Source: a bacterium (candidate division B38) B3_B38
Lineage (GTDB): Bacteria > Acidobacteriota > B3-B38 > Guanabaribacteriales > B3-B38
Direction: 5' to 3'
NCBI GenBank assembly: GCA_005223145.1
Contig: NJBL01000011.1
Coordinates: forward strand, 1-45,844
DNA length: 45,844 nt
Shown: in pieces, positions 1-20,134 of the stretch
How the letters are laid out: each line of letters opens with the position of its first letter
Numbering within the stretch: position 1 is the first letter of the stretch
Translations under genes and position numbers: made by a program
The notes under the pieces: generated by a model
Told to the model about the DNA's origin: nothing
Seen by the model: only the letters and a program-made list of their open reading frames with translations
Databases searched by the model: none

Positions 1-821
1 TCCAGCGGGGAGGACCATCTACTGGATTGCCTACATTAGTAGGGCAGCAGGATATGATGCAGGCTCGGTGGGGTTCGCATGGGGATTACGAGATAATAGC
101 TTTGTGCCCTTCCTCACCGCAGGAGCTGTTTGATTACACTATAAAAGCGTTTAACCTCTCAGAGAAGTATCGGGTGCCGGTGCTGGTCATGGGCGACGAG
201 GTGGTAGGGCATATGTCCGAAAGGGTGGTCATCCCCTCTAAAGAAAAAATAGAGCTGTTCTCCAGAAGAAAGTACACCGGTCCCCCGGAGGAATACCTTC
301 CTTTTAAGCCTGACAAGAACCTCGTGCCGCCGATGGTCACTGCTGGTGAGGGATACCACATCCACATTACCGGACTCACCCACGATGAGAAGGGATATCC
401 AGTAATCAATGCGGAAGCCCAAAATGAACTGGTTCCCCGCCTGATGAATAAGATAATAAAGAATGCCGATAAAATTATTGAAATTGAGGAAACCAACACC
501 AAAGATGCTGAGGTTATTATTATCTCCTACGGTATTTCCGCGCGAACCTCGCTTAGGGCAATTGAGCTGGCAGAAGAAGAAGGAATAAAGGTAGGAATAT
601 TGAGGCTGATTACTGTCTGGCCTTTCCCTGAGAAAAGAATCTACCAGTTAGCAAGCAAGGTTGCGGGCTTCGTGGTGCCCGAGATCAACTTAGGACAGAT
701 AGTTTACGAGGTAGAACGCTGTGCAAAAGGAAAGACCAGGGTCACTCTGGTACCCCACGCTGGCGGTCACATCCACGACCCCAGGGATATTTTCCAAGCG
801 ATAAGGAGTACATTGAAATGA
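1..821 (+). CDS. korA: 2-oxoacid:ferredoxin oxidoreductase, alpha subunit (5' truncated)
   Basis: The reading frame is open at the left edge (first full codon at base 3). The TTG at 27 lies inside the conserved motif RGGPSTGLPT, so it is not the real start and the gene begins outside the window. The subunit family oxidises 2-oxoacids (2-oxoglutarate or a branched-chain analogue) with CoA and ferredoxin in the cytoplasm. Visible features are GPSTGLPT, the following GQQDMMQARWGSHGDYE block, and a C-terminal transketolase-like domain ending near VPHAGGHIHDP. It overlaps korB by 4 bases (ATGA), so the two are translationally coupled. A ferredoxin-type KorD subunit often precedes korA and may lie upstream. 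The family is clear, but the 2-oxoacid preference (Kor versus Vor) cannot be read from the sequence. Confidence 0.9.
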   Translation, partial: QRGGPSTGLPTLVGQQDMMQARWGSHGDYEIIALCPSSPQELFDYTIKAFNLSEKYRVPVLVMGDEVVGHMSERVVIPSKEKIELFSRRKYTGPPEEYLPFKPDKNLVPPMVTAGEGYHIHITGLTHDEKGYPVINAEAQNELVPRLMNKIIKNADKIIEIEETNTKDAEVIIISYGISARTSLRAIELAEEEGIKVGILRLITVWPFPEKRIYQLASKVAGFVVPEINLGQIVYEVERCAKGKTRVTLVPHAGGHIHDPRDIFQAIRSTLK

Positions 822-1648
822 ATGAAAAGCATCCCATGGATTACCTTCTAAGGGAGGACCGCATCCCCCACATCTGGTGTCCTGGTTGTGGCATAGGGAG
901 TTCGGTATCCTGCTTCATTATGGCACTGCAGGAGTCGGGCTTGGATCTGAAGAAGGTAGCTGTGGTCTCAGGAATTGGCTGCACGGGTAGGGTGGCTGGC
1001 TATGTCAAGCTCGATTCCTTTCATACCACCCACGGCAGAGCGATACCCTTCGCCACCGGTCTGGCTTTAGCCAACCCTGAGTTGAAGGTGGTGGTTTACA
1101 GCGGGGATGGTGACCTTATTGCTATTGGGGGGAACCATTTTATCCATGCGGCTCGGCGTAATGTCAATATGACCGTTATTTGCATCAATAATTTCCTCTA
1201 TGCAATGACTGGGGGACAGGTGGGACCCACCACCCCCCTTTATGCTAAGGCTTCCACCTCCCCATACGGGAACTTCGAGCAACCCTTTAATCTGGTCCAT
1301 CTGGCGGCTGCCAGTGGGGCGGTCTATGTGGCACGCTGGACTGCTCTGCACCTTAGAAGGCTGACCAAGTCGATGACCGAAGCCCTCCACAAGAAAGGCT
1401 TCAGCTTCATAGAGGTAATCTCCCCCTGTCCCACCTCTTATGCCCGCAGGAACCGCTTAGGCGATGGCCTGGCGCAGATGAAATTCTATCATGATAACAG
1501 CATCATAAGGCATGGAGCAGACCCCAAGGACACCGACATCGGTTTCCAGACAAAAATCGTGGTGGGTAAATTCATTGACGAGGAACGTCCCGACCATTAC
1601 ACCTTCCTGACACAGGAGCTGGAAAAAGTGACAGGAGGAAAGAAATGA
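818..1648 (+). CDS. korB: 2-oxoacid:ferredoxin oxidoreductase, beta (TPP-binding) subunit
   Basis: This 276-residue protein is the thiamine-diphosphate subunit of the KorABC enzyme. The N-terminal WCPGCGIGSS carries the cysteines that help hold a [4Fe-4S] cluster in this family. The TPP/Mg motif begins with SGDGDLIAIGGNHF and ends about 25 residues later with CINNFLYAMTGGQ, followed by GPTTP. SPCPTSYARRN and the GDGLAQMKFYHDNS segment are also typical of KorB. Length is normal. The start ATG overlaps the korA stop (ATGA), and its own TGA stop overlaps the korC start in the same way, so the three subunits should be made in equal amounts. The use of UGA as a true stop here matters for interpreting the hdrA genes downstream. 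Confidence 0.93.
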   Translation: MNEKHPMDYLLREDRIPHIWCPGCGIGSSVSCFIMALQESGLDLKKVAVVSGIGCTGRVAGYVKLDSFHTTHGRAIPFATGLALANPELKVVVYSGDGDLIAIGGNHFIHAARRNVNMTVICINNFLYAMTGGQVGPTTPLYAKASTSPYGNFEQPFNLVHLAAASGAVYVARWTALHLRRLTKSMTEALHKKGFSFIEVISPCPTSYARRNRLGDGLAQMKFYHDNSIIRHGADPKDTDIGFQTKIVVGKFIDEERPDHYTFLTQELEKVTGGKK

Positions 1649-2208
1649 GCCGACAGGAGATAAAGTTTACGGGATTTGGTGGCCAGGGGATTATCCTCGT
1701 CGGTTACATACTGGGAAAGGCTGCCTCCGTCTACGGTGGAAGAAATTCCACCATGGTGCAGTCCTACGGCCCAGAGGCTCGGGGCAGTGCCTGTAGTTCT
1801 CAGGTGGTTATCGCCGATGGAGGAATTTTTTATCCCTATGTGACTAACCCCGATATGCTGGTGACAATGTCTCAGGAAGCCTATGTCAAGTTCCTCCCTG
1901 AACTGAAGGAGGGGGGAATTCTTATAATTGATGAGGATCTGGTTACACTGAAAAAAACCAAAAAGAAGATGACTATGTTTTCCATACCCGCTACGCGATT
2001 TGCCGAAAAGATGGGGAAAAAAATAGTAGCCAATATTGTGATGCTTGGCTTCTTTACCGAGGTGACCAAGACAGTCAGCTTTGAGGCGATGGAGAAGGCA
2101 GTAGCCACCTCTGTCCCCAAAGGGACTGAGGAGTTGAACTTGAAAGCTCTGCACGAGGGTCGGCAATATGCCCGCAATATATTAGCAGAAGGGAAAAAAG
2201 ATAATTAG
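1645..2208 (+). CDS. korC: 2-oxoacid:ferredoxin oxidoreductase, gamma subunit
   Basis: This 187-residue protein matches the gamma domain of 2-oxoacid:acceptor oxidoreductases. It opens with the signature [18 protein letters not shown] and continues with [21 protein letters not shown], both highly typical. The gamma subunit helps form the CoA site and the contact between alpha and beta. Size is normal and the gene appears intact. It overlaps korB by 4 bases. It ends 58 bases before the first hdrA start, and the short gap contains a weak terminator-like hairpin. The same-strand arrangement suggests that reduced ferredoxin or electrons from KorABC are passed to the Hdr proteins encoded next; that link is inference. 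Confidence 0.92.
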
Positions 2209-2211
2209 TCT

Positions 2212-2238
2212 CCCCTGGGAACCTCGAAGGGGCTTTTT
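2212..2238 (+). terminator. Weak terminator-like hairpin between korC and hdrA
   Basis: CCCCT (2212-2216) can pair with AGGGG (2228-2232) across an 11-base loop, followed by C and a run of five T. The stem is only 5 bp, so it is more likely a partial attenuator between korABC and the hdr genes than a full stop. Confidence 0.3.
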
Positions 2239-2266
2239 ATTAATCAAAGAAACGGTAGCAATAAAG

Positions 2267-5200
2267 ATGAAAGGTGTTCTGGTTATCGGAGGTGGGGTGG
2301 CTGGTATGCAGGCTGCCCTCGATTTAGCCAATGCTGGGGTCAAGGTATTCCTTATGGAACGTAACCCTTCCTTGGGAGGGAGGATGGCTCAGCTTGATAA
2401 GACCTTCCCCTCTATGGATTGCGCTACCTGAATCCTCGGACCCCGCATGCTGGATGTCGGTCGACATCCCAATATAGAGCTCTTGACCCTCTGTCAGCTA
2501 ACAAAAGTTGAAGGGGAAAAAGGAAACTTTCGAGTAAGCTATCTGAAAAAAGCTCGCTATGTAAAAGAGGATGTCTGCACTGCATGTGGAATCTGTGCCG
2601 AGAAATGCCCCATTAAAGTCCCCGATGATTTTGAATTAGGCTTGGGAAAGAGAAAAGCTGTCTATATTTACTGCAGCCAAGGGGTGCCCTCTGTGTATGC
2701 CATCGACCCTGAACACTGCCCTATGATTCTGAAGGGGAAGTGCGGGCTCTGTGACAAACTATGTCAGGCGGGAGCTATTGATTATAACCAAAGGGACGAA
2801 GAGAAAACCATCAATGTAGGAGCTATCGTTGTGGCTACTGGCTTTAGTCAGCTTAAGCCCACTGCTTTGAAAAATTACGGTTACCGGCAATATGCAAATG
2901 TCCTCACCGGGCTGGAATTTGAGCGATTACTCAGCGCTACCGGTCCCACCGGCGGGCATATTCTCCGTCCCTCCGATTCTAAGGCACCCCAAAAAATCGT
3001 TTTTATCCAATGCGTCGGTTCGCGCATGACCAAAGAAAATGGCTATCCCTATTGCTCGGTATACTGCTGCACTAATTCTATAAAATGCGCCCTGCTGGCT
3101 AAAACCCACGACGCCAATATAAAAGATATCTCCATATTGTATATGGACCTTAGAACCTATGGCAAGGGGTTCCAGGAGCTGTTCCTGCGGGCGAAAGAAG
3201 TGGAAGGGGTTAAGTTCTTAAGGGGGCGCCCCGCCCGGGTGCTGGAAAACCCTGAGACCAAAAGCCTGACCATAATGGTGGAGAACACCGATAACAACAG
3301 GATAGAGCCTCTGGAAGCAGATATGGTTGTCCTCTCTACTGCCGCTATCCCTTCAAAAGGTGCGGAGGAGCTGGCTCGGATTTTGGGCATTGAGGTTGAT
3401 AGCTATGGCTTCTTCAAAGAGAGGGATTTCCACCACCCCACAGAGGCAACACGCCCGGGAGTATATATAGCCGGCTCTTGCAGTGGCCCCCGCGATATCA
3501 CCGACTCGGTAGCCTGGGGAACGGCAACGGCTGTAAAAGCCCTTACCCATATGGAGGGAGCCCGGATTGCTAAAAAAGAGATAGATGTAGAGCCGATAGA
3601 CATCTCTGGCGAACCCCGCATAGGTGTCTTTGTATGCCATTGTGGGATAAATATTGCCGGAGTTGTAGATGTGGAGGAGGTTAATCAGTACGCACAAACC
3701 CTTCCGGGGGTGGTTTACTCTGAGCGTATGCTATTTGCTTGCGCTGATGACAGCCAGAGAGAGATCCAGGACAAGATAAAAGAATATCAGCTCAACCGGG
3801 TGGTAGTCGCCTCCTGTACTCCCAGAACCCATGAGCCCATTTTCAGAGAGACCTGCGATTTAGTTGGTTTAAACCCCTACCTTTTTGAAATGGCCAACAT
3901 AAGGGACCAGTGCTCATGGGTTCACGCCTCTAATCCCAAAAAGGCAACCGAAAAAGCAAATGACCTGGTCAGGATGGCGGTGGCTCGTTGCCATCTGTTG
4001 CAGCCCTTGGAATCAAGGCAGATGCCGATGAACCCTGATATGCTGGTAGTAGGGGGGGGAATTACGGGCATCCAGGCTTCTCTCGACCTGGCACGACTGG
4101 GGCATAAAGTAACTTTGGTTGAGAAGGAAGACAGATTGGGGGGAAGGGTTAAGGAGTTAGCCACCTTCTATGAAGAAAATTATGATGGGGAGCAGCTCAT
4201 TAGTGAGAAGGTAAAGCAACTGGAAAAAGCTGGGGTGAATATCTTGACCTCTACCATGGTAAATGAGGTCAGCGGCTTTGTAGGTAATTTCGAGGTATCC
4301 CTGCAATCTCTGAAACAAAAAGAGGAAACGACCACCATTCAATTAGGCTCCATTGTGGTGGCCATAGGCTCCGACCTGTACGACCCCACCGGGAAGTTCG
4401 GCTACGGCTCCTTTCCTAATATCCTGACCAATATGGAGATGGAGAAGCTCCTGAGAGAGGGCTCGTCTGAGCTGACCCCGGATGGTAAAGAAGCCAAGAA
4501 CATCGTTTTTGTTCAATGTGTCGGCTCACGAAATAAGGAGGAGGGCAATCCCGATTGTTCCCGCTATTGCTGTCTTGTTGCCATTAAACAGGCATTGAAG
4601 CTTAGAGAGAAAGGTGCCCGGGTAGTAATCCTCTACCGCGACATCATCGCTTTCGGCAAAGGAGGGGAGGAGCTATATCGCAAGGCAAGGGGCGAGGGTG
4701 TCCTCTTCCTCAGATACGATGCCGAGAATCCCCCTCAGGTCATAGGGAAGGGGAGGGCAACCGGCATCCGATGGATGTTCTCCCCATTAAGCCAGGAGAT
4801 AGAGCTCCCGGTAGACTTAGTGGTGTTGTCGGTAGGAATGGTCCCTCGAAAGGTGGATGCGGAGCAAATTCAAGAACAGTTGAAGATCCCTCGCAGCCTG
4901 GATGGTTTCTTTATGGAGAGACACTCCAAGCTGGGTCCGGTGGAGACCTCCACAGAGGGAATTTATATATGTGGCTGTGCACAATCGGCAAAGGACATCA
5001 CCGATTCTGTAGCTCAAGCTTCAGCAGCAGCAAGTAAGGCAGCGGTGATGGCTTCCAAGGAATTTGTTGAGCTGGAGCCAACTACCTGCGTGGTACGGGA
5101 AGAACTATGTCGAGGCTGCGGAACCTGCCAGGAAGTATGCCAGTTCAACGCTCCTGAGCTGGTGGAGACCCCTGCGGGTTACTATGTTTCCCGCATAAAC

Positions 5201-5326
5201 GAAGCTCTATGCAAAGGATGTGGTACCTGTGCTTCCCTTTGCCCCACCGGGGCTATAGTGGCTCGACACTTCACCGACCTGCAGATTGATAAAATGGTCG
5301 AAGCTATGCTAGCGAGCTCTTTATAA
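2267..5326 (+). CDS. hdrA: Double-module HdrA-type iron-sulfur flavoprotein with selenocysteine (Sec55)
   Basis: HdrA is the FAD/iron-sulfur subunit that bifurcates electrons in heterodisulfide-reductase complexes. Reading through the in-frame TGA at 2429-2431 gives about 1019 residues. Module 1: a Rossmann FAD motif at the N-terminus ([12 protein letters not shown]), then [12 protein letters not shown]-Sec-ILGPRM, where homologues have Cys, and an inserted [4Fe-4S] motif at C104/C107/C110/C114. Module 2: an HdrA N-terminal domain from about residue 451 ([14 protein letters not shown]), a second FAD motif near 590 ([12 protein letters not shown]), and two C-terminal ferredoxin motifs near 946 and 982 ([22 protein letters not shown]). 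Module 2 has neither the MDC-x-x-Sec motif nor the inserted cluster. The ATG at 2267 is the best start; no strong ribosome-binding site is visible. Without Sec, a gene caller would begin at 2447 and lose the FAD motif. Confidence 0.88.
2452..2469 (+). promoter_or_regulatory. Bacterial SECIS-like hairpin of hdrA copy 1
   Basis: GGATGTC (2452-2458) and GACATCC (2463-2469) form a perfect 7-bp stem with loop GGTC. It starts 20 bases after the UGA at 2429-2431. This fits bacterial SECIS elements, which lie inside the coding region just 3' of the UGA and carry a G near the start of a small apical loop for SelB binding. It also encodes the conserved residues DVGRHP. An identical hairpin follows the second hdrA UGA. 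Confidence 0.8.
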
Positions 5327-5345
5327 CCTGGGAGTGATGTATTAC

Positions 5346-5783
5346 ATGGGGAACAAGAAAAAAGAAGAGGAATTTGAACCTAAGATCGTAGTTTTTGCCT
5401 GCAACTGGTGCTCCTACGCAGGAGCAGATACGGCTGGGGTTAGCAAAATCCAATACCCTCCCAATGTCAGACTAATAAGGGTGATGTGCTCTGGAAGGGT
5501 CAACCCCGCCTTCGTCATAAAGGCTTTCGAACGGGGGGCAGATGGGGTTATGGTCTCCGGCTGTCATTTTGGAGATTGCCACTACATGTTTGGTAATTAC
5601 CAGGCCAAGGAGCGGTTTGAAATTTTAAAGAGGCTCATTCATATCCTCGGTCTGGAAAAGGAGAGATTGAGGCTGGAATGGGTCTCTGCTGCAGAGGGGG
5701 GTAGATTTGCTCAAGTCATAAGAGAGTTTGTTGAGGATGTTAAGAAAGTGGGTAGAAGCCCCTTAGCCCCCATTACAATATAA
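5346..5783 (+). CDS. mvhD: MvhD/FrhD-type [2Fe-2S] electron-transfer subunit
   Basis: MvhD is the small protein that passes electrons to or from HdrA; in methanogens it joins the hydrogenase to Hdr. The sequence shows the family blocks VVFACNWCSYAGAD, VMCSGRVNPAFV, SGCHFGDCHYMFGN and RLEWVSAAEGGRFAQ, with all cysteines present. Candidate starts are GTG 5334, ATG 5337 and ATG 5346. The GGGAG at 5330-5334 is 11 bases before 5346, giving about 145 residues; the others are too close to it. The gene follows hdrA copy 1 by about 20 bases. No hydrogenase genes are adjacent, so its donor or acceptor is probably not a hydrogenase. A second MvhD domain is fused to HdrA copy 2. Confidence 0.9.
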   Translation: MGNKKKEEEFEPKIVVFACNWCSYAGADTAGVSKIQYPPNVRLIRVMCSGRVNPAFVIKAFERGADGVMVSGCHFGDCHYMFGNYQAKERFEILKRLIHILGLEKERLRLEWVSAAEGGRFAQVIREFVEDVKKVGRSPLAPITI

Positions 5784-5801
5784 CATAAAGGGTGAGTTCA
5801 G

Positions 5802-6947
5802 ATGGTTGTGAAAGAAGAAGTGCTCAAGAAAACACAGGCGTATTACTGCCTTGATTGTGGTAAATGCACCAGTGTTTGTCCTATATCCCGCTTCAATGGG
5901 GGATTCTCTCCCCGGCGGATTCTCGTCGGCAGCCTCACCGGAAGATACGAAGAAACTTTGAAGGATGAAAAACTTTACACCTGCCTGACCTGCGGCTTAT
6001 GCGGTACCAGGTGCCCATCGGATGTAAAGTTTGGAGAATTTATCAAAAACGCCCGCTTTGAGGGGCAAAAACTGGGTAATCTGATTCCCTGCGCCCATGG
6101 GGGGGCTATCCAGTCTCTCATGCGGATAATGACTTCCCCCTCTCTGGAACAGAGACGCCTGGGCTGGGTTCCTCGTGCAGCTAAGGTTGCGGAGAAAGGT
6201 GAGGTAGCATACTTTGTTGGTTGTCTCCCTTATTTCGATGCCTTTTTCACCGATATAGAGGTGGATAGCCTCAAAATTGCCAAAGCTGCGGTTAAGATTT
6301 TAAATCGGGCGGAGGTGGAGCCTGTCTTGCTGAAGAACGAAAGATGCTGTGGTCATGACCTCCTGTGGGCGGGAGACCTTGACAACTTTAAGAAACTTGC
6401 TGAGCATAATATCAATGCCATAAAGGAGAGCGGAGCCAACACTGTTATCACCACCTGCGCCGAGTGTTACCGCACCTTCAAGATCGACTACCCCATTTAT
6501 ATAGGACCACTCCCCTTTAAGGTGCTGCATATTACGGAGTTTTTAATCGACAGCGTTTCTCAAGGAAAACTCAATTTTAAGAAAACGCGCAAGAAGGTCA
6601 CCTTTCAAGACCCTTGCCGATTGGGAAGGCACTTGGGTATGTATGAGCAACCCAGAATGGTTCTCAGCAGTGTCCCAGAACTCTCTATGGTGGAGATGGA
6701 GAGGAATCAGCAGAGCGCCATTTGCTGTGGCACCAGCGGCTGGATGAACTGCGACGCTATCTCTAAGCGTATACAATCTCACCGCTTGAAAAGCGCCCAG
6801 CAGACAGGTGCTGACCTTCTGGTTACCGGATGTCCCAAGTGCTATATCCATTTCAAATGCGCTATGAAAGACCCCAAGATGGGGAAAGAGTTAGAAATAG
6901 AGATAAAAGATTTGACTTCAATTATAGCTGATGCCTTAGGGAGGTAA
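5802..6947 (+). CDS. HdrC-HdrB fusion (heterodisulfide reductase-like, two [4Fe-4S] motifs plus two CCG domains)
   Basis: This 381-residue protein joins an HdrC-like ferredoxin part to an HdrB/HdrD-like catalytic part. Cys16-19-22-26 (CLDCGKCTSVCP) and Cys61-64-67-71 (CLTCGLCGTRCP) are two [4Fe-4S] motifs. Two complete CCG domains follow. The first runs from YFVGC through ERCCGHD to TTCAEC; the second from FQDPC through ICCGTSGW to TGCPKC. In HdrB these cysteines hold the two noncubane clusters that reduce a disulfide. The true substrate here is unknown: it could be another disulfide, a thiol carrier or a partner redox protein. It sits between mvhD and hdrA copy 2, with 18- and 5-base gaps. 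Its acceptor role in the complex is inference. Confidence 0.87.
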   Translation: MVVKEEVLKKTQAYYCLDCGKCTSVCPISRFNGGFSPRRILVGSLTGRYEETLKDEKLYTCLTCGLCGTRCPSDVKFGEFIKNARFEGQKLGNLIPCAHGGAIQSLMRIMTSPSLEQRRLGWVPRAAKVAEKGEVAYFVGCLPYFDAFFTDIEVDSLKIAKAAVKILNRAEVEPVLLKNERCCGHDLLWAGDLDNFKKLAEHNINAIKESGANTVITTCAECYRTFKIDYPIYIGPLPFKVLHITEFLIDSVSQGKLNFKKTRKKVTFQDPCRLGRHLGMYEQPRMVLSSVPELSMVEMERNQQSAICCGTSGWMNCDAISKRIQSHRLKSAQQTGADLLVTGCPKCYIHFKCAMKDPKMGKELEIEIKDLTSIIADALGR

Positions 6948-6952
6948 GATAA

Positions 6953-9358
6953 TTGGCAATCGAAAGGTCTGAATCTGATGAGTTGAGGATTGGTGTTTTT
7001 ATCTGCTATTGTGGACTTAACATCTCGGGGACTGTCGATTGCGAGGCGGTGGCTGAGTATGCTCAGGGGCTGAAGGATGTGGTAGCAGCCAGCACCAACC
7101 GCTATACCTGCTCGGAACCCGGACAGCAGGAAATCAAAAACGACATAAAGGAGCATAATCTCAACCGGGTGGTCGTCGCATCGTGTTCCCCCAGAATGCA
7201 CGAACCGACCTTCAGGGTTGCCTGTCAGGAAGTAGGGCTAAATCCTTACTTGCTGGAGATGGTAAACCTGCGAGAGCACTGCAGCTGGGTCCACATGCAT
7301 GAGCCCGAAAAAGCAACCGAAAAAGCCAAAGAGATGGTAAAAATGGGAGTGGCTCGTGCCCGCTTCCTCCAGCCTCAGATTGAGAAAGAGGTCCCGGTTG
7401 ATAGAAGCACCATGGTGATCGGGGGTGGAATTGCCGGCATACAGGCTTCTCTCGACCTCGCCAATGCCGGGTATCAGGTATATCTGGTGGAAAAGAAACC
7501 AAGCATTGGCGGGGTTATGGCCCAGATAGACAAGACCTTCCCCACCATGGACTGTTCCATCTGAATATTGGGACCGAAGATGACGGATGTCGGTCGACAT
7601 CCCCGAATCGAGCTTATGACCCTTAGCGAAGTGGTAGATGTCCAGGGGTACATAGGGAACTTCAGGGTCAAGGTTCTTCGCAAAGCCCGCTATGTAGACG
7701 AGAAAGAGTGCACCGCCTGCGGCGATTGTCTTGAGGATTGCCCGGTTACCAAGCCCAACGAGTTCGACCTCGGTCTTTCCACCCGCAAGGCGATCTATCA
7801 ACCCTTCCCTCAGGCAGTACCGGCGGCTTTTGCGCTGAATATGGAAGAATGCCTGGGGAATAACCCTATTGCCTGTGGCAAGTGCTTGGAGAAATGCGAG
7901 AAGGAGTGCATCGACTACGATATGCAGGATAAGGAGGTGGAAATTAAGGTAGGGACTATTATTGTCGCTACAGGAATGGATGTCTACGACCCCACGGAGC
8001 TCGATGAGTTCGGATATACCCGCTTTGAGAATGTGGTCACCAGCCTCGAGTTTGAAAGGCTGATAAACGCCGGCGGACCCACTGAAGGGCATCTCATCCG
8101 ACCCACCGACTGGCAGCTGCCCAAAAGGGTCGCTTTCATACAATGTATAGGCTCCCGCTCAGAAAAGAGGGGGAACCCCTATTGCAGCAATGTCTGCTGT
8201 ATGAACACCATCAAGGATTCCCTCCTCATAAAGAATCACTGGCCCGAGGTGGAGATAAAGGTCTTCTATATGGATATAAGAGCTTTCGGCAAAGGGTTTG
8301 AAGACCTTTATAAACGGAGCAAAGCTGAGGGGGTTATGTATATTCGGGGTATTCCCGGTGACATAAGAGAGGATCAGGAGACCAAGAACCTTTTCCTTTT
8401 GGCCGAAGATAGCAATACGGGTAAAGTTATGGAGCACGAAGTGGACATGGTCATCCTCTCCATCGGGCTGATTCCCAGCACCGAAAATAGCCTTATTCGA
8501 CAGCTCCTGACTCTCTCCCGAACATCGGATGGCTTCTTCATGGAAGCCCACCCTAAGCTGCAACCCGTTGATGCCCCTACCAAAGGGGTCTTCTTTGCTG
8601 GCTGTGCCGAGTCTCCCAAGGATATCAAAGACAGCGTCACCCAGGCTTCTGCGTCGGCTTCCAGGGCAAACATACTGATGAGCGCTGGCAAGTTCACTGT
8701 GGAGGCGATTACCTCTCTGATAAACGAAGAGCTATGTAAGGCTTGCGGTCTCTGCGCCAGGGTATGCCCCTATCATGCCATTGAATTTGACAAGGAGAAG
8801 AAGCTCCCTGCTCGGGTTATCGAAGCCAGCTGTGCCGGCTGCGGCACCTGCGGGGCTGAATGTGCTTTTGATGCTGTTGTTATGCGACACTTCACCGACC
8901 AGCAAATTCTCGGCCAGGTGGAGGCCATCCTGGAGGAAAACCCTCAGGATAAGGTGGTGGTATTTGCCTGTAACTGGTGCTCCTATGCCGGGGCGGACTA
9001 TGCCGGGGTCTCCCGTCTCCAGTACCCTCCCAGTATCAGAATTATCAGGACAATGTGCAGCGGGCGGGTGGATGAGAAATTTGTACTTCATGCATTTAAG
9101 CTGGGTGCTCCAATTGTTCTGGTATCCGGTTGCCATTTCGCCGACTGCCATTATATAAATGCCAATCGCTGGACCCAGAAAAGGGTGGAGAAGCTGTGGG
9201 ATAAGCTGGAAAAGAAGGGTATACGACCAGAGCGCTTACAGTTGGAGTGGATCAGTGCCGCTGAGGGATTAAAATTCGCCAAGGTAATGAAAGAGATGGA
9301 GGAGCTCAGACAAGGTGTCACCCTGGAGGAGATAGACTACACACGGAAGGAGCTCTGA
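6953..9358 (+). CDS. hdrA: HdrA-MvhD fusion with selenocysteine (Sec204)
   Basis: Read through the in-frame TGA at 7562-7564, this is an 801-residue HdrA. The TTG start at 6953 has GGAGG 8 bases upstream (6940-6944). Order: HdrA N-terminal domain (IGVFICYCGLNISG, from about residue 12), FAD motif near 160 (MVIGGGIAGIQ), DKTFPTMDCSI-Sec-ILGPKM, inserted [4Fe-4S] at C253/C256/C259/C263, two ferredoxin motifs near 595 and 627 (CKACGLCARVC, CAGCGTCGAEC), then a fused MvhD domain from about 665 (VVFACNWCSYAGAD, SGCHFADCHY, QLEWISAAEG). The gene ends with TGA at 9356-9358, so the same message uses UGA as Sec and as stop. It is clearly diverged from copy 1. It probably forms the bifurcating core with the neighbouring Hdr proteins. 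Confidence 0.9.
7585..7602 (+). promoter_or_regulatory. Bacterial SECIS-like hairpin of hdrA copy 2
   Basis: GGATGTC (7585-7591), loop GGTC and GACATCC (7596-7602) form the same 18-nt hairpin as in copy 1, again exactly 20 bases after the UGA (7562-7564). The terminal UGA at 9356 is at the end of the gene; I saw no comparable hairpin after it. Confidence 0.8.
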
Positions 9359-19126: not shown

Positions 19127-20134
19127 ATGGAAAGGGAGTTAAAGACAATCTATATTCTATTGGTGATGTTACCTTCCTTAATGGTGAGCTGCAGCGGAGA
19201 AAAAGGCTCGGAAGGTCTTATCACCGCATCGGGAACCATAGAAGCCACCGATGTCTATGTCAGGACAGAGGTCCCCGGGATAATACTGGACTACAAGCTA
19301 AAGGAGGGCGATAGAGTAGAGCAGGGGGATCTAATATGCCGCCTGGACTCCGAGAAGCTTGAAATCCAGCTCCAGCAAGCCAGAGCCAGGCAGAAGGAGC
19401 TTCAGTATAGACTCGCGCTCATCCGAAAAGGGGCGCGTACGGAAGAAATAGAGAGGGCAAAATCTTCCCTGGAGAAAGCCTTAAGCAATCTGAAAGATGC
19501 TGAACGGAACTACCAGAGGGCAAAAGAGCTTTTCCAAGATGAGGCATTGCCTCCGGCAGAGCTTGATAAGGCAAAGCTGAGGGTAGAGGTCAACCAGAGG
19601 CTTGTTGAAATTTCTCAAAAAGAGTACGAGATATTACAGCAGGGCTCCCGCCCTGAGGAGGTCAAAATGGCAGAAGCAGCCCTGGAGGGGGTGAAGCATC
19701 AGGTGGCTTACATTCAAGCCCAGTTAGCCGATACTTTCATCTACACCCCTCGCAAAGGGATAATTGCCCAGAAGCTGGCGGAGGAAGGAGAATATCTGCC
19801 CCCCGGTGGTTTGGTGGCTAAAATAATCGATGTGGATAACCTGTGGCTGATGGTATATCTCACCGAAGTCGAATTCGGCAGGGTAAAACTTGGAGACCAG
19901 GTCAGGGTAACCGTCGATTCTTATCCAGAGCACGAATTCACCGGCAGGATAATCTATCTCTCACCAGAAGCAGAGTTTACCCCCAAGAACATCCAGACCA
20001 AAGAGGAGCGGGTCAAACTGGTCTTCGGGGTGAGGGTGGGGCTGGAAGACCCATCTGGATTGCTGAAGCCCGGTATGCCGGCTGATGCTGTGCTTAAGCC
20101 CCATAAAATAGGCACCTCTGAGGAGGAAAAGTGA
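19127..20134 (+). CDS. HlyD/YbhG-type periplasmic adaptor, probable lipoprotein
   Basis: This 335-residue membrane-fusion protein has a hydrophobic N-terminus (IYILLVMLPSLMVSC) whose Cys22 sits in a plausible lipobox, so it is probably lipid-anchored. A first lipoyl half (GTIEATDVYVRTEVPGIILD) is followed by a long coiled-coil hairpin from about residue 80 to 195 (many Lys/Glu/Gln heptads, with RKGARTEEI and QQGSRPEEV repeats), then the second lipoyl half (TFIYTPRKGIIAQKLAEEGEYL) and a beta-barrel domain. It bridges the inner-membrane ABC exporter to the outer envelope, consistent with a diderm cell. Confidence 0.88.
   Translation: MERELKTIYILLVMLPSLMVSCSGEKGSEGLITASGTIEATDVYVRTEVPGIILDYKLKEGDRVEQGDLICRLDSEKLEIQLQQARARQKELQYRLALIRKGARTEEIERAKSSLEKALSNLKDAERNYQRAKELFQDEALPPAELDKAKLRVEVNQRLVEISQKEYEILQQGSRPEEVKMAEAALEGVKHQVAYIQAQLADTFIYTPRKGIIAQKLAEEGEYLPPGGLVAKIIDVDNLWLMVYLTEVEFGRVKLGDQVRVTVDSYPEHEFTGRIIYLSPEAEFTPKNIQTKEERVKLVFGVRVGLEDPSGLLKPGMPADAVLKPHKIGTSEEEK

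Follow-up and report, generated by a model that had tools for sequence, protein, structure and literature searches.

An in-frame UGA codon very probably encoding selenocysteine in a double HdrA beside korABC in Aminicenantes

In the bacterium B3_B38 (contig NJBL01000011.1, assembly GCA_005223145.1), an hdrA-like frame near the contig start is open over 1019 codons, provided that a TGA at codon 55 is read through. This locus raises the question of whether the UGA encodes selenocysteine (Sec), or reflects an error, a decaying gene or a variant genetic code, and of what role a selenocysteine at this position might play in the encoded protein. We addressed these questions within the window, meaning the whole 45,844-nucleotide stretch analysed, and among homologous loci in the same and other genomes.

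Two HdrA frames with an internal UGA

The gene, hereafter copy 1, belongs to a cluster of the order korABC-hdrA-mvhD-hdrD/glpC-hdrA::mvhD (positions 27-9358), which is syntenic in the same-genus genome G002 and at loci L055 and L105, and partly so in Zixibacteria (L035/L036); synteny extends, in part or in full, to other phyla. Its features are as follows.

27-2208, forward strand: korA (cut off at its 5' end by the contig edge), korB and korC, 2-oxoacid:ferredoxin oxidoreductase (Pfam/NCBIfam; synteny in G002, L036, L055 and L105)
2267-5326, forward strand: hdrA copy 1, a fused double HdrA of 1019 residues with Sec55, open when TGA is read as Sec
2429-2431, forward strand: in-frame TGA at codon 55, taken to encode selenocysteine; aligned with Cys197 in 5odc HdrA and X in 9sfi_A, and conserved in G002
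2452-2469, forward strand: bacterial-type SECIS hairpin GGATGTC-GGTC-GACATCC, seven perfect base pairs with loop GGTC, starting 20 nt after the TGA (fold and homologue comparison)
5334-5783, forward strand: mvhD-like subunit, all Cys (Pfam FlpD, 189 bits)
5802-6947, forward strand: HdrD/GlpC-like subunit with Fer4 and two CCG domains (Pfam CCG and Fer4_8)
6953-9358, forward strand: hdrA copy 2, an HdrA2-MvhD fusion carrying Sec204, whose stop codon is an ordinary TGA at 9356-9358 (NF040770, 1236 bits, above the cut-off of 1100)
7562-7564, forward strand: second in-frame TGA, Sec204, context MDCSI-U-ILGP, at the site equivalent to that of copy 1 (translation, homologue alignment)
7585-7602, forward strand: SECIS hairpin of copy 2, 18 nt identical to that of copy 1 (fold, sequence comparison)

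The TGA at 2429-2431 is the sole internal TGA of the copy 1 frame and, when translated as Sec, stands in the context MDCAT-U-ILGP. An earlier note on this DNA had proposed an unbroken frame from ATG 2267 through this codon, and had predicted that standard gene calling would begin at 2447; both proposals hold, as reading through the TGA yields a single 1019-residue HdrA, while the longest ORF under the standard code runs from ATG 2447 and encodes 959 residues. Copy 1 scores 1064 bits against the HdrA2 profile NF040770 and 830 bits against NF041778, the former lying just below the equivalog cut-off of 1100, plausibly on account of the double architecture of the protein. The PDB HdrA chain 5odc_A matches copy 1 with E=1.8e-206 in an alignment of three segments, through which the N-domain, the FAD domain, and the inserted and C-terminal ferredoxin domains of HdrA are all recovered, in permuted and doubled order.

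The earlier note had overlooked both the TGA of copy 2 and the hairpin that follows it. This second TGA lies in the context MDCSI-U-ILGPKMTDVGRHP, and the 18-nt element GGATGTCGGTCGACATCC begins 20 nt past it, exactly as in copy 1. Around the site, 22 of the 49 codons for residues shared by the two copies are identical outside the hairpin, compared with all of the codons within it. Copy 2 is co-linear with 5odc_A over 653 residues. Reading the TGA at codon 802 of this frame as a further Sec was rejected, as only a short tail and no conserved site would follow, and we regard it as the true stop; a TGA at 20132-20134, which separates two ORFs of the same frame, was likewise rejected as a Sec codon and marks an ordinary gene boundary.

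Codon, hairpin and Sec machinery

Homologous loci were gathered by peptide patterns, such that synonymous codon choice was not itself selected for. Across 113 deduplicated positions aligned at the D/E-C-x-x site, the codon is TGA in 70, TGC in 25 and TGT in 18, and nothing else, in keeping with the earlier expectation that residue 55 would align with Cys or Sec. The 70 TGA-bearing homologues are spread over several phyla, and Sec and Cys have interchanged at least nine times on the tree, five of these changes being forced by well-supported branches. Cys197 in 5odc, and TGA in the methanogen genes at L038 and L039 and in bacterial homologues, bear out the earlier statement that HdrA has Cys at this site, and Sec in some methanogens and bacteria. 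PDB chain 9sfi_A carries a non-standard residue, X, in the column of U55, which we infer to be Sec. Within the genome itself, four HdrA genes contain the TGA, namely the two in this cluster and two more on C95 and C67 (L157/L140 and L160), all with the hairpin, and a further two HdrA genes, on C39 and C25, encode Cys. At L055 and L105, copy 1 of the equivalent cluster has Cys and copy 2 has TGA. Among named relatives, a Candidatus Aminicenantes genome comes closest, at 84% identity.

The hairpin described in the earlier note, of 7 bp with a GGTC loop and 20 bases beyond the TGA, was located at 2452-2469 and folds as described. Its stability in a 52-nt fold does not exceed that of shuffled sequence (z = +0.18), and because this value is near zero we set stability aside as evidence for a SECIS element, the weight coming instead from comparison. 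A hairpin with a GGTC loop and a stem of 6 bp or more follows 59 of the 67 bacterial Sec (TGA) sites and none of the 24 bacterial Cys sites (Fisher p = 1.8e-15, a value that overstates independence as the sequences are related). All 54 bacterial Sec genes containing the peptide DVGRHP encode it as GAT GTC GGT CGR CAT CC, whereas the three bacterial Cys genes that share this peptide (L058, L063, L093) use GTG GGA/GGC, synonymous codons that break the hairpin. The same contrast occurs within Desulfobulbus rhabdoformis, in which a Sec copy has the hairpin and a Cys copy lacks it. At one hairpin pair both bases have changed, from U-A to C-G, in five sequences, including the copy on C95 of this genome; covariation is limited to that pair since most of the base pairs are invariant.

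Eight bacterial TGA-containing HdrA genes (L047, L049, L056, L060, L062, L068, L099, L110) lack the standard hairpin and have alternative candidate hairpins with AGGT or GGC loops. The TGA-containing HdrA genes of Methanocaldococcus have no downstream hairpin, which is expected, as archaeal SECIS elements sit elsewhere. Separately, two Cys-encoding HdrA genes of Asgard archaea (L040:3998 and L073:1432) carry a GGTC hairpin resembling the bacterial SECIS, which may be due to chance or be a remnant of transfer from bacteria. An Rfam scan of the window returned no match.

These observations bear on whether the TGA simply arose through faulty sequencing or assembly, or is a premature stop acquired by a gene that is decaying, leaving translation to start at 2447 or the gene dead. 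The source is a draft metagenome-assembled genome, and the standard-code ORF does begin at that ATG; nevertheless we consider this explanation very improbable, given that G002 has the same TGA, that copy 2 has one at the equivalent site, that 70 homologues of several phyla share it, and that the hairpin follows TGA sites and not Cys sites. Further, codons 1-54 differ between B3_B38 and G002 by 16 synonymous and two nonsynonymous changes with the TGA kept, a pattern which fits a single gene extending across the TGA; this sister-species comparison indicates that purifying selection acts on codons both before and after it.

Selenocysteine insertion also requires dedicated machinery, and the earlier note had held that a genome without sel genes, or homologues with neither Cys nor Sec at the site, would speak against the assignment. 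We found selA (576 bits), selB (360 bits, 645 residues) and selD (344 bits), and only Cys or UGA at the site. The selD gene itself contains one in-frame TGA (L033:7658-7660), which occupies the position where SelD normally has Cys or Sec (GSGUASK) and precedes a hairpin with GGUC in it. The remaining component, selC, was detected only in the same-genus G002, as a tRNA-Sec (anticodon TCA) that neighbours a recombinase fragment and alr. In the 93%-complete assembly of B3_B38, tRNA-Sec was not found by Rfam, by ARAGORN on candidate loci, by two tRNA-Sec patterns or with the G002 locus as query, and those Rfam tRNA-Sec matches in the genome that were checked by ARAGORN proved to be tRNA-Leu, Tyr, Gly, Arg, Trp or Cys. 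As the G002 query matched neither the tRNA nor the neighbouring alr, an assembly gap is suggested rather than a loss of selC. The tRNA-Sec of G002 directly adjoins the tyrosine-recombinase fragment (L156:10481-11163), suggesting that selC serves as an integration site in that genome.

A variant genetic code, in which TGA is an ordinary sense codon for Trp or Gly, for example, has in its favour just the open frame beyond the TGA, and we regard it as exceedingly improbable. It is refuted by normal TGA termination, which ends 10 of the 36 ORFs in the window and copy 2 itself, where TGA is both internal and terminal; moreover, the site is otherwise always Cys, and selA, selB and selD are present. 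Given the restriction of the site to Cys or UGA, the Sec-specific hairpin, the three sel genes and the X in 9sfi_A, hdrA copy 1 is very probably a selenoprotein gene with Sec at UGA55, as the earlier note had proposed. On this sequence evidence we infer that Sec is actually inserted: SelB charged with Sec-tRNA would bind the GGUC-loop hairpin starting 20 nt past UGA55, and the ribosome would then incorporate selenocysteine rather than stop, with UGA204 of copy 2 presumably decoded by the same route.

Sec55 and the putative Kor-linked complex

If Sec is inserted, its function may be sought either at the flavin or at an iron-sulfur cluster. The alignments divide copy 1 as follows.

2273-3580, forward strand: first HdrA half, an FAD domain with U55 and an inserted two-cluster ferredoxin domain, without the N-terminal domain (aligned to 5odc_A 146-510 and to copy 2)
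3611-4015, forward strand: HdrA N-terminal Fe-S domain, residues 449-583, with Cys457, 459, 492, 517 and 549 (aligned to 5odc_A 3-137)
4034-5323, forward strand: second HdrA half, an FAD domain without a Cys197 equivalent or inserted ferredoxin, then a C-terminal 2x[4Fe-4S] domain (Pfam, 5odc_A alignment, Cys positions)

The earlier note proposed that Sec alters how the flavin domain behaves in redox reactions. The site does lie in a thioredoxin-reductase-like FAD domain, in the form C-x-x-U, a motif that often serves redox functions in other selenoproteins, and the residue might thus act mainly beside the flavin, for instance as a thiol/selenol pair with Cys52 of the kind found in thioredoxin-like motifs. 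We find this role unlikely, however, as U55 aligns with Cys197 of 5odc_A, which in methanogen HdrA is described as coordinating, in the partner HdrA, the N-terminal [4Fe-4S] cluster through which electrons travel to ferredoxin (PMC9012536, a secondary description of the published structure). The location in the FAD-domain fold stands, and the site probably serves the Fe-S cluster. Fused HdrAs exhibit a complementary loss of the N-domain and of Cys197 (PMC9012536), and copy 1 is complementary in just this manner: U55 sits in a half that has no N-domain, and the N-domain belongs to a half that has no Cys197 site. Together, the role of Cys197 and this complementarity suggest that Sec55 is a selenolate ligand between the halves, and, by analogy, it is probably a ligand to the [4Fe-4S] cluster of the N-terminal domain. 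Sec55 would then take the place of the methanogen Cys197, the ligand being supplied in trans from one HdrA half to the other, with donor and acceptor in copy 1 both within one polypeptide. The copy 2 unit carries both the N-domain and Sec, like methanogen HdrA, and may work as a dimer.

The adjacent korABC genes are a probable functional partner of the Hdr genes, and a scan for terminators and promoters between korC and hdrA found nothing. From gene content and order, a Kor-linked Hdr complex appears somewhat favoured. Such a soluble complex of Kor, HdrA, MvhD and HdrD would probably bifurcate or confurcate electrons among ferredoxin, an MvhD/HdrD-linked acceptor and an unspecified third partner, and oxidation of 2-oxoacids would likely be coupled to ferredoxin and Hdr.

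Elsewhere in these genomes, we observed a candidate double-selenocysteine MvhD (FlpD; G000:C95:6761-7129, L179) in which two Cys sites (CNWU and GGUKFGECHY) are each occupied by an in-frame TGA, and the same in G002 (L180), and hence in two species. A further MvhD (G000:C25:55326-55694, L177) has one in-frame TGA (GILVAGULEGTCHY) and is conserved in three genomes (G000, G001, G002).

Relation to known Sec-HdrAs and significance

HdrA is a known family of bacterial selenoproteins, to which the present gene adds a member, not a new type. Sec-HdrAs of bacteria, among them HdrA pairs that cluster with FrhD and GlpC, date in the literature from 2006 (PMC1794560), and are recorded in Syntrophobacter, Syntrophus, Desulfobacterium autotrophicum and Moorella (Zhang 2006, PMC1794560; PMC2702500); according to the literature, D. 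autotrophicum and D. multivorans also have a selenoprotein HdrA. The present case shares with these the protein family, the exchange of Sec for Cys, the bacterial-type in-frame SECIS, the MvhD/FrhD and GlpC-like neighbours, and the paired or fused HdrA, but it occurs in Aminicenantes, adjoins korABC, and has GlpC-like and MvhD genes that are all-Cys. It likewise shares the residue position with the methanogen Sec-HdrAs (M. jannaschii and M. maripaludis HdrAU; PDB 9sfi_A; TGA in L038 and L039), from which it differs in having a hairpin downstream of the TGA and, in copy 1, a double HdrA. The fused HdrAs of ANME archaea and Moorella thermoacetica also hold two HdrA units per chain, which complement each other with respect to the N-terminal domain and Cys197 (PMC9012536); in contrast to the ANME fusions, the order in copy 1 is reversed, with the site-bearing half first and the N-domain half second, and the predicted ligand is Sec. 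A search of a literature library found no paper on Aminicenantes selenoproteins.

More broadly, we judge it an evenly balanced proposition that, inside the single chain of the fused HdrA, the [4Fe-4S] cluster of one half is ligated in trans by a selenolate from the other; that Sec would thus tune the Fe-S cluster of the ferredoxin branch in a Kor-linked Hdr complex of Aminicenantes; and that a single near-invariant 18-nt SECIS drives this arrangement across several bacterial phyla. Standard gene calling shortens both HdrAs of the cluster and conceals the Sec site, so that the complex will be misinterpreted in metabolic reconstructions of Aminicenantes. The locus also frames a testable question, namely what has led a bifurcating flavoprotein to swap Cys and Sec so repeatedly at a position that ligates an Fe-S cluster.
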